Source of the DNA: a virus
DNA length: 20,501 bases
Direction: 5' to 3' (one strand)
Virus record (IMG/VR): IMGVR_UViG_3300008448_000845
Coordinates: 1-20,501 of that record
Shown here: piece by piece, positions 2 to 19,832 of the stretch
Layout of the letters: each line of letters opens with the position of its first letter
How positions within the stretch are numbered: the stretch's first letter is position 1
The notes under the pieces: model-generated
What the model saw: only the letters and a program-made list of their open reading frames with translations
Databases searched by the model: none
What the model was told of the DNA's origin: nothing
Position numbers and translations under genes: made by a program

Positions 2-1114
2 TCTGGAGCAAATGGAGCCCCTGGCTCATCTGGAACATCTGGCTCGTCTGGTACTAGTGGAGCAAATGGAGCCCCTGGCTCATCTGGAACATCTGGCTCG
101 TCTGGTACTAGTGGAGCAAATGGAGCCCCTGGCTCATCTGGAACATCTGGACAAACTGGTGCACCTGGCTCATCTGGAACATCTGGCTCGTCTGGTACAT
201 CTGGCACTAGAGGAAGTAGCGGCACATCTGGAACATCTGGACAAACTGGTGGACCTGGATCATCTGGTAGTTCAGGTACTAGTGGTACATCAGTAGCTGT
301 ATCAGGAACAACAAACTATGTAGCTAAATTTACTTCTGCTACTACTATTGGTAATACAGGCGTTCCAATATTTGATAATGGCACCAATGTTGGTATAGGC
401 ACAGTATCACCAGGATCAAAACTTACATTAACAGGAGGAGACTTATTCTTAACAGATTCTGTTACTAATATATGGATGGGTAATAATGCCGATTCAGGAA
501 ATAGATTTAGACTGCATTTAAACGGTACAGAAAATTATATGGATTTTGGTACTGGCGGTCTACACATTAGAAGCTCAGACACATCAGAAAGAGTTACATT
601 AAAATCTAGTGGTGAAGTTGGTATTAATAATACGAACCCAACATATAGACTAGATATAGTAGGAGATGCTAGAGTTAACACAGGAGCTCTAGGTGTGAAT
701 GTAGCACCAAATGCGACTGATGGTAGAATAGATGCATCAAATGATATAGTAGCATACTCATCAGATAGACGTTTAAAGACTAATATTAAGTCTATAGAAA
801 CACCATTAGAGAAAGTAGAAAAATTGATAGGCTTTACTTATAACTGGAATAATAAAGCAAAAGAATTAGCCAACTACAACACAGAAGAATCATTAGTTGG
901 CGTATTTGCACAAGACGTTCAAGCAGTACTTCCTGAAGCAGTTAAATTAGCTCCATTCGATAATAATGGAAATGACAAGTCAATAACAGGAGAAGACTAT
1001 TTAACTGTACAATATGAGAAGTTAGTACCACTATTGATAGAGGCAATAAAAGAACAGCAAAAGCAAATAAACAATCTACAAACCCAAATTAATTATTTAG
1101 TAAATAATAAATAA
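2..1114 (+). CDS. Tail fibre, collagen-like with C-terminal S74 chaperone domain (5' end missing)
   Basis: The frame is open from the window edge, so this is the last 370 residues of a longer fibre; the ATG at 476 is internal. Residues 1 to about 97 are uninterrupted Gly-X-Y triplets rich in Ser, Thr and Ala, which would form a collagen-like triple helix. A linker containing NYVAKFT follows, then beta-type repeats with the usual VGIGT...P and VGIN...NP signatures. From residue 254 the SDRRLKTNI motif opens an intramolecular chaperone (peptidase S74) domain. In this family the Ser-Asp pair cleaves the domain off after the trimer has folded. The protein ends in a Gln/Asn-rich coiled coil. It probably acts as a distal, host-contacting fibre. 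The stop is followed after 2 bases by the next gene. Domain calls are firm; which fibre it is cannot be told. Confidence 0.88.
   Translation, partial: SGANGAPGSSGTSGSSGTSGANGAPGSSGTSGSSGTSGANGAPGSSGTSGQTGAPGSSGTSGSSGTSGTRGSSGTSGTSGQTGGPGSSGSSGTSGTSVAVSGTTNYVAKFTSATTIGNTGVPIFDNGTNVGIGTVSPGSKLTLTGGDLFLTDSVTNIWMGNNADSGNRFRLHLNGTENYMDFGTGGLHIRSSDTSERVTLKSSGEVGINNTNPTYRLDIVGDARVNTGALGVNVAPNATDGRIDASNDIVAYSSDRRLKTNIKSIETPLEKVEKLIGFTYNWNNKAKELANYNTEESLVGVFAQDVQAVLPEAVKLAPFDNNGNDKSITGEDYLTVQYEKLVPLLIEAIKEQQKQINNLQTQINYLVNNK
5..150 (+). repeat. 54-bp tandem repeat coding for Gly-X-Y triplets
   Basis: Two perfect 54-bp units (5-58 and 59-112) are followed by a third that matches for 38 bases, to about 150. 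Each unit encodes 18 residues, i.e. six Gly-X-Y triplets. Shorter, less exact copies of its sub-motifs (catctggaacatctgg) continue to about 290. The nucleotide identity, not just protein identity, points to recent unequal recombination or slippage that could change fibre length. Confidence 0.9.
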
Positions 1115-3771: not shown

Positions 3772-5517
3772 ATGGCCGAAACACTTATTAGCCCAGGAGT
3801 TTTCTTAAATGAAAACGATTTATCCCAAATAACACAAGGACCTGTTGCCGCTGGCGCAGCACTTTTAGGACCTACTGTAACTGGACCAGTTAATATTCCT
3901 ACATTAGTAACTTCCTATTCAGAATATAAAGCGCTCTTTGGTGCTTCATTTATTTCTGGAGGTTTTAACTATGAGTATTTAACTTCAATTGCTGCCCTCA
4001 ATTACTTTGAGCAAGGTGGTGATTCTTTGTTAATTACTAGAGTAGCTTCTGGTTCTTATACAGCAGCAACCTCTTCAGTACTCAATCCTTCAACGTCTTC
4101 ATCATTTGATTTAGAAACATTATCTGTAGGTACAGTAATGAATAATGTTGGAGGACTATCTGTAAATGGATCACTTCCTTCAGGATCGTCTTCTAATGTA
4201 CGTTGGGAAATTACTTCTGTTGATACAGGTTCAGGTGTATTTAATTTAATTATTCGTCGTGGCGACGATTACAATAATAGTAAGACTATCCTTGAAACAT
4301 GGAATGGTCTTTCTTTAGATCCTAATCAAAATAACTATATTGCTTATGTGATTGGTGATCAAACCCAAACTCTTCGTACAGATTCTACTGGTGATTATTA
4401 TTTACAAACTACAGGATCTTATGCAAATAGGAGCCGTTATGTAAGAGTTAAGTCTGTAAATTTACCAACACCTGGATATTTTAGCCAAAACGGAATAGCC
4501 CAAAACCAATATACATCTTCGATGCCTAAAGTAGGTTCTGGATCTTTTGGTGGTGCAATTGGAGCTCTTTTTGGTTCATTAGGAAAAGCTCCTGTAAATT
4601 TCTTTGAAAGTATTCCATCTGCTAATTCAGTAGTTGCAACTCCAACAACTAATATTCAAGGTGTACATTCAGCAGATTATGCCGTTGGTATAAATTTACT
4701 TGAAAATCAAGATACATACGACTTTAATGTTGTTTATGCTCCTGGTTTAACTAATGAAAATTCTGAAACTACAATTGGTTCTATTCTTACTTTAGCTCAA
4801 GATCGTGGTGATGCTATCGCAGTAATTGACATGGTAGGATATGGAGCTCAAATCAATAGCGTACTTACACAAGCTGTAAATTATGACAACTCTTATGGTG
4901 CAACATATTGGCCATGGGTACAAATTAGAAGCCGTGAGACTGGTAAATTGAATTTTGTTCCTGCTTCTACCTTGGTACCAGCAGTATATGAATACAATGA
5001 TAAAGTATCTGCAGAATGGTTTGCCCCAGCAGGTTTAAATCGCGGTGCATTAGCAACCGTGCTTCAACCAGAAAGAAAGTTAACTGTTAATGATCGCAAC
5101 CTTCTTTATCAAGGAAAAATCAATCCGATCGCTGCATTCCCTGGAGTTGGTACTGTTATCTATGGTCAAAAGACTTTACAACAGAAGCCTTCTGCTCTTG
5201 ATCGTGTAAACGTTCGCAGATTGTTGATTGCTCTTAAAGATTACATTGGACAAATTGGTGAAACAATTGTGTTTGAACCAAATACCCAAGTAACTCGTAA
5301 TAAATTCTTAAATCAAGTTAATCCTTACTTAGAGTCTGTACAACAAAGACAAGGTTTGTATGCATTCCAAGTGGTGATGGACGAGACAAATAATACACCA
5401 GATGTAGTAGATCGTAACCAATTAGTTGGTACCATTTACTTGCAACCAACCAAGACTGCGGAATTCATTCAACTTGACTTCAACATTCTTCCAACTGGCA
5501 CAACATTTGGTCAATAA
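3772..5517 (+). CDS. 18: Contractile tail sheath protein, T4 gp18-like
   Basis: 581 residues (T4 gp18 has 659). It forms the outer tail cylinder that contracts and drives the tube through the envelope. The N-terminus, with ISPGVFLNENDLS, then GPAVAAGAA-type and GPVNIPTLVTSYSEYKALFG stretches, is typical of the phage sheath family. So is LNYFEQGGDSLLITRV at about residues 77-92. A variable Ser/Thr/Gly-rich insertion follows at about 95-260. The conserved C-terminal domain (about 400-575) has DYIGQIGETIVFEPN, then RNKFLNQVNPYLESV and the LVGTIYLQPTKTAEFIQLDF strand used in the handshake between subunits. Codons look somewhat optimised (more CGT, AAC, CCA than its neighbours), in keeping with high expression. 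It has its own promoter-like motif and no terminator before the next gene. Confidence 0.95.
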   Translation: MAETLISPGVFLNENDLSQITQGPVAAGAALLGPTVTGPVNIPTLVTSYSEYKALFGASFISGGFNYEYLTSIAALNYFEQGGDSLLITRVASGSYTAATSSVLNPSTSSSFDLETLSVGTVMNNVGGLSVNGSLPSGSSSNVRWEITSVDTGSGVFNLIIRRGDDYNNSKTILETWNGLSLDPNQNNYIAYVIGDQTQTLRTDSTGDYYLQTTGSYANRSRYVRVKSVNLPTPGYFSQNGIAQNQYTSSMPKVGSGSFGGAIGALFGSLGKAPVNFFESIPSANSVVATPTTNIQGVHSADYAVGINLLENQDTYDFNVVYAPGLTNENSETTIGSILTLAQDRGDAIAVIDMVGYGAQINSVLTQAVNYDNSYGATYWPWVQIRSRETGKLNFVPASTLVPAVYEYNDKVSAEWFAPAGLNRGALATVLQPERKLTVNDRNLLYQGKINPIAAFPGVGTVIYGQKTLQQKPSALDRVNVRRLLIALKDYIGQIGETIVFEPNTQVTRNKFLNQVNPYLESVQQRQGLYAFQVVMDETNNTPDVVDRNQLVGTIYLQPTKTAEFIQLDFNILPTGTTFGQ

Positions 5518-6104: not shown

Positions 6105-6590
6105 ATGCCAGTATTGGATCCAAATGAAATAATGTTCACAGCGTTTGAACCTACGGTATCAAACCGCTTTGTGATGTATATCGACGGTATCCCTTCTTAC
6201 ATGATTAAGAAGGCAGACGCTCCAGGTGTAACTTTAAACGAGATCAAACTCGACCACATCAATGTTTACCGTAAGATTAAAGGTAAAGCTGAATGGAGAG
6301 ATATGAGTTTGTCACTCTATAACCCAATTTCTCCTTCTGGTCAACAAGCCGTGATTGAGTGGGTTCGTCTTCACCATGAGTCTGTAACTGGTCGTGACGG
6401 TTATTCTGACTTCTATAAGAAAGATCTTAACTTGTCTATCATAGGTCCAGTAGGTGACATTGTAAGTGAGTGGATTATCAAAGGTGCGTTCATTAAAGAA
6501 GCTACTTTTGGTAACTATGACTGGTCTACTTCTGATCCTACCGAATTGGTAATGTCTATCGGAATGGACTACTGCGTACTCAACTACTAG
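6105..6590 (+). CDS. 19: Tail tube protein, T4 gp19-like
   Basis: 161 residues (T4 gp19 has 163). It stacks as hexamers to form the inner tail tube. Typical features are a start with NRFVMYIDGIPSYMIKKADAPG at about 21-42, the central KIKGKAEWRDMSLSLYNPISPSG block, and the GDIVSEWIIKGAFIKEATFGNYDW strand pair near the end. The C-terminus (LVMSIGMDYCVLNY) is the usual last strand. Codon choice is richer in C-ending and CGT codons than neighbouring genes, as expected for a major structural protein. It has its own promoter-like motif, 48 bases of leader gap and a strong terminator 21 bases behind it, so it can be made as a separate short transcript. Confidence 0.95.
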   Translation: MPVLDPNEIMFTAFEPTVSNRFVMYIDGIPSYMIKKADAPGVTLNEIKLDHINVYRKIKGKAEWRDMSLSLYNPISPSGQQAVIEWVRLHHESVTGRDGYSDFYKKDLNLSIIGPVGDIVSEWIIKGAFIKEATFGNYDWSTSDPTELVMSIGMDYCVLNY

Positions 6591-6611: not shown

Positions 6612-6638
6612 AAAAGGCCCCTTACTAGGGGCTTTTTT
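6612..6638 (+). terminator. Strong rho-independent terminator after tail tube gene
   Basis: A GC stem (gcccc with ggggc, extended by flanking A-T pairs with one bulged G) has loop ttacta and is followed by seven T. It lies 21 bases after the tube stop and before the next promoter-like motif. Confidence 0.88.
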
Positions 6639-6689: not shown

Positions 6690-7457
6690 ATGGCAGAACA
6701 AAAGTTTACGGTACCGACAGAATTGGTAGACCTACCTTCAAAAGGTCTAGTATATGCAAAAGAAAACACATTATCTTCTGGACAAGTCGAAATGAAGTAT
6801 ATGACAGCTAAAGAGGAAGACATCCTCACAAATGTCAATCTGCTGCGCCAGGGCCTCGCCATTGAGAAGATGCTCAAGAGTCTAATTAAGTCATCAATTA
6901 ACTATGAAGACCTAACCTTGGGTGACAGAAATGGCTTACTGATAGCCGCTAGGATTCTTGCTTATGGTAAGGAATACTCTTTTAAGTATAACAATCCTAA
7001 TACAGGAGAAGAAGAGACTGTACAAGCAGACTTACAAAATCTTAAGTATAAAGAGATTGACTTCTCTCTTCTTAACAATAAGAATGAGTTTGAATTTAAA
7101 CTTCCTAAATCAGGCAATACAATTACTTTTAAGGTATTAACAGTTGCTGATGATAAAAAGATTGATGAAGAGATTAAGGGCATAAAGAAAAATCTAGGTC
7201 AAGATGCAGGAATTATATCAACTAGACTTAAACATCAGATTGTAGCTGTTAATGGTGATTATTCTGTAAAAACAATCAGAGATTTTATTGATCAAGGTTA
7301 TTTATTAGCTATTGATTCTATTGAGCTTCGTAAGTATATTGCCTCTGTTACTCCTGATATTGATATGAAATTACTTATCATATTTAAAGATGGTACAGAA
7401 TTGACTGTAGATTTACCTATGACAGCTGAATTCTTTTTTCCCGGGAGCGGACTATAG
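6690..7457 (+). CDS. 26: T4 gp26-like baseplate/tail-assembly protein, probable frameshift donor
   Basis: 255 residues (T4 gp26 has 208). The N-terminal part has the pattern of the T4 gp26 family (Pfam T4_baseplate): TELVDLPSKGLVYA, then MKYMTAKEEDILTNVNLLRQG at about 30-54 and a helix with MLKSLI. After that come DRNGLLIAARILAYGKEYSF and a ThrGly/Glu loop (NPNTGEEETVQA) like a small beta or zinc-ribbon-type finger without Cys. The C-terminal half (about 140-245) is mixed helix and strand. In T4 gp26 acts in baseplate hub assembly. Here the gene lies between tube and tape measure, the classic place of a tail-assembly chaperone. Its last codons, TTT TTT CCC GGG, and a hairpin over the stop suggest +1 frameshifting into the next ORF. 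Confidence 0.82.
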   Translation: MAEQKFTVPTELVDLPSKGLVYAKENTLSSGQVEMKYMTAKEEDILTNVNLLRQGLAIEKMLKSLIKSSINYEDLTLGDRNGLLIAARILAYGKEYSFKYNNPNTGEEETVQADLQNLKYKEIDFSLLNNKNEFEFKLPKSGNTITFKVLTVADDKKIDEEIKGIKKNLGQDAGIISTRLKHQIVAVNGDYSVKTIRDFIDQGYLLAIDSIELRKYIASVTPDIDMKLLIIFKDGTELTVDLPMTAEFFFPGSGL

Positions 7458-7463
7458 GTCCGC
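7431..7463 (+). promoter_or_regulatory. Probable programmed +1 frameshift signal (slip site plus hairpin)
   Basis: In frame, the gene reads TTC TTT TTT CCC GGG AGC GGA CTA TAG. The next ORF is in the +1 frame, open from 7423. A Pro-tRNA on CCC (7440-7442) can slip one base onto CCG (7441-7443) and continue GGA GCG GAC. Right after it is a perfect 6-bp GC-rich stem, GCGGAC (7447-7452) with GTCCGC (7458-7463). Its 5-base loop, tatag, holds the stop codon. The fused product would be 344 residues (251 + 93). The -1 frame closes at 7469-7471, so -1 slipping gives only a short tail. An alternative is stop-restart coupling to the ATG at 7468. Confidence 0.62.
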
Positions 7464-7467
7464 ATTC

Positions 7468-7725
7468 ATGACAGAATGCTTTGAATTAACTTATCATGGT
7501 GGTGGCGGCTTTAGTTGGTCTGAGGTTTGGAATATGTCTATAGGTACAAGAAGATTTAATCTTAAAAAAATCAATGAGTATCTAGAAAAGCTAGAAGAGG
7601 TCCGTAACCAAAATAATCAAAAGGTTACAGAAAAAACAGATATGAATAAATTCAAGATCCCAGACGTGGTCAAAAATAAGTTGGAAGAGCCTACATTTGT
7701 TTCTAAGGTAAAAAACAAAAAGTAA
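7468..7725 (+). CDS. Short ORF before tape measure, candidate chaperone T-domain
   Basis: 85 residues if the ATG at 7468 is used; the frame is open upstream to 7423, so it may be made only as a frameshift extension of the gp26-like protein. The first 40 residues are compact and Trp/Gly-rich (FELTYHGGGGFSWSEVWNMS), followed by a basic helix (RRFNLKKINEYLEKLEEV) and a Lys-rich tail. A short Trp-containing domain with helix, coming just before the tape measure, matches in position and kind the 'T' part of lambda GT and E+E' of P2. Identity with those is not visible. There is no convincing Shine-Dalgarno sequence; only AGG at 7456-7458 inside the hairpin region. An 11-base step separates the previous stop and this ATG. 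ATATTTAT follows its stop directly. Confidence 0.72.
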   Translation: MTECFELTYHGGGGFSWSEVWNMSIGTRRFNLKKINEYLEKLEEVRNQNNQKVTEKTDMNKFKIPDVVKNKLEEPTFVSKVKNKK

Positions 7726-7752: not shown

Positions 7753-10700
7753 ATGGCCAACGAAAATCAAAATACAGGTGCTAATCCAGGACTAAATTTA
7801 AATCAACAATTGTCAGATCTTCAAAATCTTAGACAAGGTTTAAAAGATTTATTAGATGATCAAGGAGACTATAATAATCTATTAAAAAACTCTTTAAAAG
7901 ATCTTGAAAAAACTACTATTCAATACAAAAAGATAGAGGATAGATTATCTGCATTATCTAAAGAATCAATTAATGTTAAGGAAGTAAATCAAGAGCTTTA
8001 TAAACTTAGACAAAAAGAGTCAGATGAGCAAAAAAAGCTTACACAGTTACAATCTTTGTATGGTAAACAAACTGTTTCTGGTTTAGAAAATGCAAAAAAA
8101 CGAGCTTTAGAAGATAAAAAACTGTATGAATCTCAAGGAACTTCTTTTGATTTACAAAAAGAAATACTAAATAATTTACAAGAACAAGGTAATTTAGAAG
8201 CAGTAAAAATATTTACTCAACAAAAACAACTTGAGTTTGCTAAACAGAAAACAAGAGAGGCAGAATTAGCTTTAGAGAATGAAAAAAATCTTTCTAAACA
8301 GTTAGGAATTACTGGAAACTCTGCTGAAGTATTAGCAAAAAAATTAAGTGTAGGAAAAGAAGCTTATGCAATAATGGTAGCAGAAGCTAGAAAGTTATTA
8401 GAAGAGCAAAAAACACTATCACAGTTACCCCAACAAAAACTTTTAGATAACCCTCAGCAATCTCAAGCACCAGCTCAAGTACAACAAGTACAGTCGCAAC
8501 CTCAAATTCAACAAGCACAAGTACAACAAGCCCAAATACAGCCTCAGGTACAACAAGCTCAAACTCAACAAGCTCAAGCCCAGAGTCAAGCCCAGCAAAC
8601 TATTAGCCAGGCCCAAGCCCAGGCTCAAACTCAACAAGCTCAAGCCCAGAGTCAAGCCCAGCAAACTATTAGTCAAGCTTTAGTTCAAGCTCTGCAAACT
8701 ATTGGACAAGCTTTAGCTCAAGGTCAACAAATTATTAGTCAGGCCCAAGCCCAAGCTCAACCTCAGGCTCAACAACCTACTGGACAAGCTACTATTCAAC
8801 CTCAACAAGCTCCTTTAAATAATCCAATACAACCTCAACAAGCGGTTTCTACTATAGAACAAATAGATGTTGGTAAAAGTTTAGAGCAGTCTATAAGAGA
8901 TTCTAGAAGACTTCAAGGAGATACTAATTCTGAATTAAATAAATCAATAAATCTCATATCTCAGATTAATGATTTAAGAGATCAATCTATTTCAAAAGTA
9001 AAGGCTTTAAATAAAGAGACTATCAATACTAGAGATATTCAGAAGGAGTTTCAAAAAGCTAAAGAAAAAGAGGCATTATCACTAGCAAAAGTAACAAAGT
9101 TAGAAAGTTCATTAGGCGATGTTGAAAAACAAAATGCTAGAACTTATTTAGAAGATATAGAAAAGAGAGAGAGGCTAGAGCAAGATATTCAAAGAGCTAG
9201 ATTAAGAGGAAATACAGCTTTAGTAGTCGCATTAGGAAATGACTTAGCTCTTGTAGATCAAAGAATAGAAGATGCTCAATTAGGATTAAATATAGACGAA
9301 AGAAGATACGCTGCTGCTATACAAGCAAATAAAGTAGCTAGTGAAACAAAAAATTTACTAAAAGGTGAATTAGATATAGAAAAAGAAATACAAAAAAGTG
9401 TAGGTCTTACAGGTGTAGCTTTAGGTAAGGTTTCAGAAAAATTAGGTTTAGGATCAAAATATTCAGCAGAATTAGTTGAAAAAGCAAGAGAGCTTGAAGA
9501 TGAAGGTAAAAAACTTACTTTTGGTGATAAGCTTTCTGCATTAAAAAAAGCAGGCGTAGGAGCAATAAGAGAAACTTTTACAGATCCTTTAACTGCTATT
9601 CCTGCTGCCGCTGCAATTGCAGTAGGGGCATATAAAGCTGTTGAAGCAGGTCTTACTATGATAGGAAACGCTGCTGCAAAAACTGGTAATTTTGTAGCAG
9701 GATTATCAGAGGATTCTAGTAATATTGTAAGAGGACTAGCTAGTAATGTATCTGGTCTAGCTAGAAATATACCATTAGTAGGAGGACTTCTTGGAGGTTT
9801 AATAGATGGCTTTGCTGCAATATTAGATTTAGTTCTAGGTGTGGACAATATGATTGTCAAAACAGGTAGACAATTAAATATGTCCGCAGAAGCGGCTAGA
9901 GGTTTATATAGGCAATTTGGAGCTATATCACAAGCTTCAGGTGATATCTATATGAATGGTAAAAAGTACTTAGAATCACAATTAGAGTTAACTAAAGAGC
10001 TAGGTACTACTAACGTATTAAGTAAAGAAATACTTAGAACCAATATTCAGTTAAAAGATTTTGCAGGTCTTGAAGCTGATACAAGAGCTAAAATTGCAGA
10101 ATCTGCTCAAATAACAGGAGAAAGAGCAGACGATACTGTTAAATCAGTACTTTCTCAAGTTTCAGGATTACAAAAGGCAACAGGCGTAAGCTTTCAATAT
10201 CAAAGGGTTTTAAAAGAGGTATCAAATTTAGGAGGCTATTTAGGTCTTCAATTTGCAAAATATCCTAAAGAATTAACTAAATCATTTCTTGCTGCAAAAA
10301 CTCTTGGTTTAGAGTTAAAACAGCTTGATGGAATGGCTAACTCTTTCTTAGATTTTGAATCATCTATATCAAAAGAGTTTGAAGCCCAACTATTAACCGG
10401 AAAAGATATTAATTTAAATAAAGCAAGAGAAGCGTTTCTTAATAATGATCTTGCAGGTGCCGCAGCAGAGATTGCAAAATATACAGGTGATGCTGCAGGA
10501 TATTCTAAGATGAATAGAATACAACAAGATTCTTTAGCAGATGCTATGGGTATGTCTAGAGATCAAATGGCAGACATGCTTAAACAGCAAGAATTGTATT
10601 CTAAGTTTGGAGTTAAAAATAGAGAAGACTTATTAAAACAAGTTGATCTATTAAGAAAAGCAGGAAAAGAACAAGAAGCTATAAATAAAGCAGGCGGTGA

Positions 10701-11289
10701 AGCCGCATATAATGATTTAGTAAGATCAGCAGCGCAAGAAAAACTTGCACTATTTATAGAGAAGATAAAACAGTCTATTGTAGAGTTTATTGAGAGCACT
10801 AACTTAATAGACAAAGTAGAAAAGTTTATAAACATGTTGTCTGATCCTAGTACAATACAAGGAATACTAGGAAAGATTAAAAGTATAATTGCTAGTTTTA
10901 TTGAAATAGCAGGAGAATTAATTGCAGATGTAGTTGAAGGAGTGGGTTGGATTAAAAACTTTTTTACTACAGGCAGATCTGGAGATATTGCTGAACAGAA
11001 AGCAAAAGAAAGGGCAAGTTCTATAAGAGAAGGATCTGCTTCTATGGCAGCAGGATTAAGAGATTTTGGTGTAGAATATAAAGGTGTTTCTGTAGGAGAG
11101 AACGTAGCTAATTCACAAGTAAAAAGAACAGAGCAAAATCAAAATGCTATGGCAATGATAGGAACTGCTGGAGGAAACGCACCTAGTCCTACATTCTATT
11201 TTGTAAATAAAAATGAAATATCAGATACAGCAAAAGCAATGGAAGACAGATTAATTAAAGCCGTTCCAATGGATACCCAAACCGGATAA
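7753..11289 (+). CDS. Tail tape measure protein
   Basis: 1178 residues, the longest helical protein of the tail block, directly after the chaperone-like pair: the standard place and form of a tape measure. Residues 1-228 are charged coiled coil. About 229-362 is a Gln/Ala-rich low-complexity linker made of QAQ-type repeats. About 375-600 is a second coiled coil that resembles the first (residues 67-223 against 418-589, e.g. ALSKESIN with ALNKETIN). Hydrophobic Gly/Ala-rich segments at about 613-640 and 667-698 are likely membrane-active parts. The C-terminal half (about 700-1010) is helical and carries VSGLQKATG-type and MSRDQMADML motifs seen in phage tape measures. No lysozyme motif is visible. 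It sets tail length and is ejected with the DNA. Confidence 0.85.
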   Translation: MANENQNTGANPGLNLNQQLSDLQNLRQGLKDLLDDQGDYNNLLKNSLKDLEKTTIQYKKIEDRLSALSKESINVKEVNQELYKLRQKESDEQKKLTQLQSLYGKQTVSGLENAKKRALEDKKLYESQGTSFDLQKEILNNLQEQGNLEAVKIFTQQKQLEFAKQKTREAELALENEKNLSKQLGITGNSAEVLAKKLSVGKEAYAIMVAEARKLLEEQKTLSQLPQQKLLDNPQQSQAPAQVQQVQSQPQIQQAQVQQAQIQPQVQQAQTQQAQAQSQAQQTISQAQAQAQTQQAQAQSQAQQTISQALVQALQTIGQALAQGQQIISQAQAQAQPQAQQPTGQATIQPQQAPLNNPIQPQQAVSTIEQIDVGKSLEQSIRDSRRLQGDTNSELNKSINLISQINDLRDQSISKVKALNKETINTRDIQKEFQKAKEKEALSLAKVTKLESSLGDVEKQNARTYLEDIEKRERLEQDIQRARLRGNTALVVALGNDLALVDQRIEDAQLGLNIDERRYAAAIQANKVASETKNLLKGELDIEKEIQKSVGLTGVALGKVSEKLGLGSKYSAELVEKARELEDEGKKLTFGDKLSALKKAGVGAIRETFTDPLTAIPAAAAIAVGAYKAVEAGLTMIGNAAAKTGNFVAGLSEDSSNIVRGLASNVSGLARNIPLVGGLLGGLIDGFAAILDLVLGVDNMIVKTGRQLNMSAEAARGLYRQFGAISQASGDIYMNGKKYLESQLELTKELGTTNVLSKEILRTNIQLKDFAGLEADTRAKIAESAQITGERADDTVKSVLSQVSGLQKATGVSFQYQRVLKEVSNLGGYLGLQFAKYPKELTKSFLAAKTLGLELKQLDGMANSFLDFESSISKEFEAQLLTGKDINLNKAREAFLNNDLAGAAAEIAKYTGDAAGYSKMNRIQQDSLADAMGMSRDQMADMLKQQELYSKFGVKNREDLLKQVDLLRKAGKEQEAINKAGGEAAYNDLVRSAAQEKLALFIEKIKQSIVEFIESTNLIDKVEKFINMLSDPSTIQGILGKIKSIIASFIEIAGELIADVVEGVGWIKNFFTTGRSGDIAEQKAKERASSIREGSASMAAGLRDFGVEYKGVSVGENVANSQVKRTEQNQNAMAMIGTAGGNAPSPTFYFVNKNEISDTAKAMEDRLIKAVPMDTQTG
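8557..8672 (+). repeat. 66-bp spaced direct repeat in the Gln-rich linker
   Basis: Fifty bases (8557-8606) recur exactly at 8623-8672, a period of 66 bases or 22 codons. They code for Gln/Ala-rich sequence. The whole stretch from about 8440 to 8850 is built of similar caagcccag and caacaagct units. Recombination between copies would change the linker by steps of 22 residues while keeping the frame. Confidence 0.85.
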
Positions 11290-18536: not shown

Positions 18537-19832
18537 ATGTATTTCATTATTGAAAATAAAGATCAGTTAAGTAGGCTAGAAGTATCTGAAGATGCTTTTA
18601 TTCAAGTCGTTACTTCTAACGATTATTACCATCCTAAGTTGACTAGGCCTAGCTTAGTATACTACAATAATTCTAAAAAAGGATACATATTTGTTATTAA
18701 CCATTCAGAAGGGTTTTCTTTAGATTTTAAGTTAGTAGAAGAATTCTTACAAAAGCATAGTAAGATCTATCTACTAGATAAAAAGCTACATTCATACTTT
18801 TTAGATCTACCTAAATCTATTGATGTACAATTTATCTGTTTAGACAAAAACAATGAGTATAGCTCTTTTGAATGCAATACACCTATTCATAGGGACTTTT
18901 ATATAAAGTATCCTGTAATGCCAACTATAAATGAGATCATTCCAATATCTAAGCACTATGAAAAATGTGAGTGTTTATATCAACTAGTCAAAGACTATTT
19001 TGAGCTTGAGATGGACATAGAACTTCAAGACAAGCTAGTAGACGCTTATAAACATGTAGAAGAGGTTGGTATCAAAGTAGATCTAGACTGTTTTCATAAT
19101 AAGTACCAGTTCCAACATGAGCAGTACTCACTATTAGGAGATACAATCTATTCTTACTATAATCTTTATAATTTAACTGGTAGACCAACCAATTCATTTA
19201 ATAGTATTAATTTCTTGGCTATCCCAAAAGACAAGGACTTTAGAGAGTGTTTTGTACCTAAGAATGATATTCTAGTTGAATTTGACTTTGATGCCTACCA
19301 TCTGAGGTTAATATCTAGGTTGATTGGGTTTGAGCCTCCTAAAGACTCAATGCACAACTACCTTGGACGCGCATATTTCCACGTGGATGAGCTCACGCCT
19401 GAACAGTATAAAGAATCAAAGGCTATCACATTCAAGCAGCTTTATGGCGGTATAGAACCGCAATACAAAGATATAGACTTCTTTAAGTCTCTAGATGAGT
19501 ACATAAATAACGAGTGGAAGAAGTATAATGCTCACAAAGCCTTGGTACTACCTACAGGAAGGATCCTAAAAAAGCTTCCTGGAATGAATAAACTTAAATT
19601 GTTCAACTACATTATCCAGAACCTGGAGACCAAAGAGAACATATATAAGATCTTGGAGATCAATAAACTTCTAAGTAAGAAGAAGACCAAGCTAATCTTG
19701 ATCACATACGATTCTTTCTTATTTGACTTTTCTAAAGAAGATGATAAAAACACACTAAAAAAGATTAAAACAATCCTAGAAGGCAAAGACATGGTAGTCA
19801 AACATAAGTATGGAGTAAACTACGCTTTCTAA
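18537..19832 (+). CDS. Short divergent family A DNA polymerase-like protein
   Basis: 431 residues against more than 900 for E. coli Pol I. Palm and finger motifs are visible: YNLTGRPTNS (Arg216, as Arg668), motif A VEFDFDAYHLRL (Asp250, as Asp705), and motif B KESKAITFKQLYGG (Lys295, Phe299, Tyr303, as Lys758, Phe762, Tyr766). NYIIQ holds Asn357 and Gln361 (as Asn845, Gln849), and motif C is LITYDSFLFDF (Asp392, as Asp882). Changes: His255 replaces the motif A Glu710, Tyr391-Asp-Ser393 replaces His-Asp-Glu, and Tyr291 sits at Arg754. Residues 1-150 have the size of a reduced 3'-5' exonuclease domain but I see no DxE active site. Both metal-binding Asp remain, so it may be active. Leader ataaaaggtt before the ATG is shared with the next gene. 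It sits between the tail block and gp32. Confidence 0.78.
   Translation: MYFIIENKDQLSRLEVSEDAFIQVVTSNDYYHPKLTRPSLVYYNNSKKGYIFVINHSEGFSLDFKLVEEFLQKHSKIYLLDKKLHSYFLDLPKSIDVQFICLDKNNEYSSFECNTPIHRDFYIKYPVMPTINEIIPISKHYEKCECLYQLVKDYFELEMDIELQDKLVDAYKHVEEVGIKVDLDCFHNKYQFQHEQYSLLGDTIYSYYNLYNLTGRPTNSFNSINFLAIPKDKDFRECFVPKNDILVEFDFDAYHLRLISRLIGFEPPKDSMHNYLGRAYFHVDELTPEQYKESKAITFKQLYGGIEPQYKDIDFFKSLDEYINNEWKKYNAHKALVLPTGRILKKLPGMNKLKLFNYIIQNLETKENIYKILEINKLLSKKKTKLILITYDSFLFDFSKEDDKNTLKKIKTILEGKDMVVKHKYGVNYAF

Follow-up and report, generated by a model that had tools for sequence, protein, structure and literature searches.

A 20,501-nucleotide stretch of viral DNA (IMG/VR record IMGVR_UViG_3300008448_000845, positions 1–20,501; hereafter the window, which supplies the coordinates used below) carries a pair of overlapping open reading frames (ORFs), designated ORF A and ORF B, that are probably joined by a programmed +1 frameshift. 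The predicted outcome is a short and a long protein comparable to gpG and gpGT of phage lambda, and the same interpretation would hold for the T4 gp26/gp51 family to which ORF A belongs; we assign it a probability of roughly 0.85. A shift of this kind between a gp26-like gene and the following ORF had been suggested in the initial annotation of the window. Our comparisons support it as the best explanation, given that ORF B lies in the +1 frame in 243 of 246 loci and that the codons at the site are frozen. However, the signal is not peculiar to this phage, as candidate shifts in either the +1 or the −1 direction were found across the PF12322 family.

We propose that ORF A and ORF B represent one gene with two readings. 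Most ribosomes would stop at the TAG at 7455 and release the short protein A, and a minority would slip by +1 at TTT-CCC-G to produce the 344-aa protein A+B. The slip would most likely occur when the A-site is at the rare GGG and the peptidyl-tRNA-Pro moves from CCC to re-pair with CCG, probably aided by a hairpin in the window and its closest relatives (the window clade). The two products may act as tail assembly chaperone forms made at a set ratio, similar to gpG and gpGT. T4-like cyanophages would produce the same extension through a −1 shift. For T4 itself, gp26 would correspond to the short form and gp51 to the long form, now encoded by two genes. The sequences show the frame relation, the frozen codons, the homology among extensions, the order of the genes, and the presence of two genes in T4, whereas we infer the occurrence of the shift, its rate, and the chaperone role; the last is based on the gene order, the logic of two forms, and a published list in which gp26 and gp51 are hub assembly chaperones (PMC3004832).

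ORF A and ORF B in the window

ORF A (6690–7457, plus strand) encodes a short product of 255 aa. It matches the Pfam family T4_baseplate (PF12322) with an E-value of 7e-11 and 42.6 bits, above the curated cut-off of 24.5, and matches phrog_150 ("baseplate hub") over residues 1–250 with an E-value of 6e-16; these matches confirm the gp26-like identity proposed earlier. The last codons in the 0 frame are TTC (7431), TTT (7434), TTT (7437), CCC (7440), GGG (7443), AGC, GGA, CTA, and the stop codon TAG (7455–7457, plus strand), which lies inside the hairpin loop. After a +1 shift, ORF B (GADYRSAFMTECFELTYHGGGGFSWSEVWNM...; 7444–7725, plus strand) would add the C-terminal part of the long product, for a total of 344 aa. 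An in-frame TGA at 7420–7422 precedes the open stretch of the +1 frame, which extends from 7423 to 7725; ORF B is in exactly the +1 frame and open across the slip site, as first described. An ATG at 7468 is in the same frame as ORF B [(7468 − 6690) mod 3 = 1]. No match to ORF B was found in Pfam or PHROG, and a scan of bacterial genomes for relatives of ORF A found none. The AlphaFold2 model of ORF A alone has a pLDDT of 91, and in a fold search it matched predicted phage "baseplate hub" and "hub assembly" proteins.

Conservation of the frame relation

A search of IMG/VR with the A–B fusion identified 80 relatives. Among those in which both parts were found, ORF B is in the +1 frame in all except one locus, L069. 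Four isolated phages have the same +1 arrangement, namely, Flavobacterium phage immuto, Microcystis phage Mel-JY01, Listeria phage LIS04, and Streptococcus phage GXN1. In the immuto record, the end of ORF B is annotated only as a 36-aa hypothetical protein. We then combined the window relatives with the relatives of the isolated phages into a set of 246 loci and searched every frame with an ORF B profile. The +1 relation, which the initial annotation had proposed checking in related phages, is kept in 243 of these loci, and a quick ungapped comparison placed the number of A proteins with <90% identity at about 126. The three exceptions are L069, T4, and Agrobacterium phage Atu_ph07 (−1 frame, by eye). 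In Atu_ph07 (L086), the extension at 3816–4040 is apparently in the −1 frame, with the sequence CAT TTT TTC GCA TGA, and part of this region is annotated as a separate small hypothetical protein.

The constancy of the +1 relation across 243 of 246 loci, together with the frozen synonymous codons described below, is more than chance would give as judged from the sequences. Two ORFs that are offset by one base at a homopolymer have the typical look of a sequencing or assembly error, or of a decayed gene. However, an identical offset in 243 loci from many samples, as well as in isolated phages with complete genomes, makes such an origin nearly inconceivable, and both sequencing error and gene decay were rejected because the offset is conserved across loci.

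Codons at the putative shift site

The putative shift site is TTT CCC GGG (7437–7445, plus strand), for which the favored slip has CCC (7440–7442) in the P-site and the rare GGG in the A-site, with UUU_C as the alternative. Both site codons were said to be rare, and the counts agree: among the window genes, CCC accounts for 3.5% of Pro codons and GGG for 2.4% of Gly codons, and an in-frame CCCGGG occurs only once, at the shift site. Although the codon counts that follow come from related sequences and are hence not independent, the usage at the site is distinct from that elsewhere in the same genes. In the window clade, the site codon is CCC in 72 of 72 loci, compared to 19 of 601 (3%) for the other Pro codons in the same genes. 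The preceding TTT is also invariant (71/71), whereas the two Phe codons before it vary. Only five of the 153 conserved degenerate columns in this clade have a single codon, and TTT and CCC are two of them; per clade, the number of such columns is three to five among 89–153, site codons included. Most members of the immuto and Mel clades have TTT [CT]T[TA] TGG CCT at this position. The conservation of CCC, which had been proposed as a check, is found in the window clade, but these sister clades use CCT instead: this codon is found at the site in 93 of 93 immuto-clade and 63 of 63 Mel-clade loci (156/156), compared to 46% and 24% elsewhere. Adjacent Pro columns in the same sequences vary freely.

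The codon that follows CCC in the window clade (with the outlier L076 left out) is GGG in 65 loci, TAG in four, TAA in four, and AGT in one, such that a rare GGG or a stop codon is present in 73 of 74 loci. This pattern matches the known CCC_stop sites of Listeria phage PSA tsh, SPP1 17.1, and E. coli pheL, and for this clade a slip at CCC is favored on sequence grounds. In a variant of the same +1 shift, tRNA-Phe would slip on UUU (from UUU_C to UUC, or on UUU_U) and CCC would serve as a slow A-site codon. This variant is consistent with the invariance of the TTT before CCC, the presence of an in-frame TTT followed by T or C within the overlap of all 243 loci, the presence of an aromatic codon followed by CCY in 239 of the 243, and the lack of a 0-frame Pro at the site in the Listeria LIS04 clade; the GGG or stop codon after CCC argues against it, and we regard it as a possible but less probable route than the slip at CCC. 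Both slips yield the identical window protein, FFFP-GADYR. The re-pairing from CCC to CCG postulated initially is the more probable slip for the window clade, with UUU_C as the alternative.

A −2 shift or transcriptional slippage on the T run would give the same frame. The window has six T before CCC and phage Mu is known to use a −2 shift (PMC5009743). However, both options are disfavored because relatives without a long T run retain the frame relation, including L002, L048, L057, and L068 (TTC TTT CCC) and the immuto clade (TTT CTT TGG), and we consider them very unlikely.

Hairpin downstream of the putative shift site

The hairpin GCGGACT-ATA-GGTCCGC (7447–7463, plus strand) is a probable 3′ stimulator in the window clade only, as suggested by covariation and folding z-scores. 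The 6-bp stem described earlier, which begins 4 nt after CCC and has the stop codon in its loop, was borne out: positions 7447–7452 and 7458–7463 form six Watson-Crick pairs, to which a U-G pair (7453/7457) can be added. The folding energy of the 81-nt piece taken as a whole is not exceptional (z 0.18). In comparison, the 50 nt after the site have a mean z of −1.78 among 36 distinct window-clade relatives, compared to −0.14 and −0.34 in the sister clades. Among 20 distinct sequences, the stem positions pair in 80% of the alignment cells and 15 cells are changed on both sides, compared to 6.3 in shuffles. The covariation score of 0.247 exceeds the value of 0.133 in shuffled alignments and those obtained when the stem was slid along the alignment (≤0.132). 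The compensatory changes, from GCG..TCC to GCC..TCG and from GAC..AGG to GAT..AGA, are synonymous in the +1 frame (Ala GCG/GCC with Ser TCC/TCG; Asp GAC/GAT with Arg AGG/AGA). These patterns point to a probable accessory stimulator limited to the window clade. A second inverted repeat, GCATTC-ATGACA-GAATGC (7462–7479), overlaps the 3′ arm of this hairpin and has the ATG at 7468 in its loop; its downstream arm is lost in many relatives.

Start of ORF B and the locus L069

The in-frame ATG of ORF B (7468–7470, plus strand), which adjoins the 3′ arm of the hairpin, is probably not a real start. If ORF A and ORF B were two separate genes, ORF B would start at this ATG, perhaps coupled to the end of ORF A. 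The ATG is located 11 nt after the ORF A stop, and an ATG precedes the conserved core of ORF B in 71 of 72 window-clade loci. However, the B frame lacks any ATG, GTG, or TTG ahead of the conserved core in 17 loci, only one of which is outside the sister clades, and a YR-like motif located 5′ of the window's ATG position is conserved across clades (231/239). The 20 nt before the ATG are also atypical for this genome, with 45% A+T compared to 70–95% before 16 other window genes; a Shine-Dalgarno-like motif is almost never present at ORF A starts in the window clade. Moreover, neither the constant +1 relation nor the frozen TTT CCC codons would be expected for two separate genes. We consider this arrangement unlikely, even with the following locus in its favor.

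In L069, a GIY-YIG/NUMOD homing-endonuclease-like gene (L069:3768–4328; phrog_314, E-value 2.5e-16; NUMOD1, E-value 9.5e-6) occupies the precise position of the putative frameshift site. ORF A still encodes FFFPGSGL at its end but is recoded there as TTT TTC TTC CCA GGA TCT GGA TTA TAA; the slip sequence has been lost, and ORF B starts with its own ATG. A relative that has lost CCC-G but kept both ORFs, which the initial annotation had named as evidence against a shift, thus exists once, and in that case a homing endonuclease gene occupies the site. The retention of ORF B in this locus shows, at the sequence level, that it was worth keeping. A second endonuclease-like ORF (2244–2927; HNH by eye) separates the tail tube gene of L069 from its ORF A.

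Putative frameshifting in the PF12322 family

A −1 version of the arrangement was found in other members of the family. In P-SSM2, Cr30, HTVC008M, and KVP40, a T_TTT_TTC or T_TTT_TTT heptamer marks the end of the PF12322 gene, which is followed by a conserved −1 ORF. Among the matches listed, all IMG/VR relatives of P-SSM2 have NNT TTT TTC just before the stop codon and a −1 extension. RM378 has the +1 arrangement (by eye). A profile of the +1 ORF B extensions matched that of the −1 extensions with a score of 47.7 (best of 60 column shuffles, 19.6), and the −1 extension matched the C-terminus of gp51 with a score of 39.6 (14.2 in shuffles).

T4 has two PF12322 genes, while the 12 other records with a match have one each. 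Three records have no PF12322 match above the threshold; two of these (immuto and Mel-JY01) nevertheless carry the gene. T4 gp26 is all domain (residues 1–206 of 208), whereas gp51 consists of the PF12322 domain and about 48 additional residues. In the maximum-likelihood tree, a branch with support of 97/86 separates the +1 sequences from the rest, and gp26 groups with gp51 as its sister (99/97), which fits a duplication in the T4 lineage. The deep order of this tree is unsure due to the long branches of Atu_ph07 and RM378.

The best reading of these sequence patterns is that the shift belongs to the PF12322 family as a whole, running in the +1 direction in one large clade and in the −1 direction in cyanophages and other members. 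It also seems likely that T4-type myophages are no exception to the G/GT rule: the gp26/gp51 family would be the chaperone, with frameshifting of −1 or +1 by lineage, and T4 would have duplicated the gene, leaving gp26 as the short copy and gp51 as the long one. T4 gp51 is required yet absent from the particle (PMC3004832). Some Acinetobacter phage records label the homologs of T4 gp26 and gp51 as "tape measure protein assembly chaperone."

Several observations weigh against a programmed shift of this kind or limit its generality. The direct profile comparison between the +1 extension and the gp51 C-terminus gave a score of 11.8, which is within the range of shuffles; the link between the two runs via the cyanophages. 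The retention of both ORFs in L069 without the slip site suggests that covalent fusion may be dispensable, at least there. The hairpin is lost and the slip site kept in L002, L031, L045, L049, L070, and L072–L074, L050 has a different stem, and no counterpart was found in the sister clades. Hence, the hairpin put forward initially as part of the signal covaries in its own clade but can be a stimulator at most, and its candidacy as an essential signal was rejected owing to its absence from the sister clades. In the Mel clade, the codons 3′ of CCT are highly variable, such that a single slip rule does not fit all clades. Finally, a PDB sequence search found no solved relative of ORF A and a fold search found no significant PDB match (the best noted was YqbN, 3klu, with an E-value of only 1.7, which is not significant); for these reasons, homology of ORF A to lambda gpG is not demonstrated.

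Comparison with known frameshift systems

Similar to lambda gpG/gpGT, the A/B pair is located between the tail tube and tape-measure genes and would give a short form and a form extended at the C-terminus in another frame. In systems of this type, the extension is conserved even though the shift direction differs between phages (PMC5009743), as is the case here. Unlike the lambda system, ORF A belongs to PF12322 and shows no recognizable similarity to gpG in sequence or fold, and the putative shift is +1. For +1 shifts, PSA tsh CCC_UGA and SPP1 CCCUAA are known sites (PMC5009743), and CCC_UGA of E. coli pheL shifts at 15%, with the preceding Phe being important (PMC6316719). With the slip favored for the window, these sites share a P-site CCC followed by a slow or stop codon, and pheL also shares the Phe before Pro; the eight window relatives with a stop codon have exactly CCC TAG or CCC TAA. 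The differences are that the known sites lengthen a tail tube or capsid protein, or are incidental, whereas the window site would extend a chaperone-like gene, and that in the window clade the A-site codon would mostly be GGG, a sense codon, with a hairpin in addition. T4 gp26 and gp51 both hold the whole PF12322 domain, and the extra C-terminus of gp51 matches the cyanophage −1 extension, but they are separate genes on opposite strands with no frameshift. The archaeal myovirus HSTV-2 is described in a review as having a presumed +1 shift at the G-T position (PMC5009743).

The frameshifted tail chaperone is already known as a kind, and the G-T frameshift has been reviewed as widely conserved in long-tailed phages "except T4" (PMC5009743). 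We found no description in the open-access literature of a frameshift in gp26/gp51 or in T4-like cyanophages, and the claim that a +1 signal in a T4 gp26-type gene is undescribed holds within this scope. What appears to be new is the presence of the putative shift throughout the gp26/gp51 family, its occurrence in the +1 direction, the hairpin limited to one clade, and the interpretation of T4 genes 26 and 51 as a G/GT pair that was split. These patterns suggest that the T4 exception to tail-chaperone frameshifting arose by the splitting of a gene and that frameshifting is used by most T4-type phages. The PF12322 frameshift would be the T4-side counterpart of G-T frameshifting.

Gene neighborhood

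The genes surrounding the A/B pair are on the plus strand. A tail sheath gene (3772–5517; PF17482, PF04984, and phrog_23) is followed by a tail tube protein gene (6105–6590; phrog_4542 tail tube, E-value 2e-19) located 5′ of ORF A. Directly 3′ of the pair is a tape-measure protein gene (7753–11289), identified by comparison with the annotated tape measure of immuto (30% identity, E-value 2e-24). The pair thus has the position of lambda G/GT. The gene order sheath-tube-A/B-tape measure is found in the window, immuto, and LIS04, and Mel-JY01 has tube-A/B-long ORF. A terminator-like hairpin with 11 pairs and a T run (6612–6637, plus strand) is located between the tube gene and ORF A; five terminator-like sites were found in the region, compared to 0.8 expected. 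Given the strength of this hairpin, ORF A/B may use their own promoter or depend on read-through.

The tape-measure gene carries Gln/Ala-rich tandem repeats with units of 15–66 bp (8472–8747). At the start of the window (2–1114), collagen-like GSSGTSG repeats (54-bp units) lead into a C-terminal part that resembles, by eye, a tail-fibre intramolecular chaperone. Near the tail genes, a 431-aa protein (18537–19832) has a partial match to family A DNA polymerases (PF00476, below cut-off) and is possibly a split polymerase.
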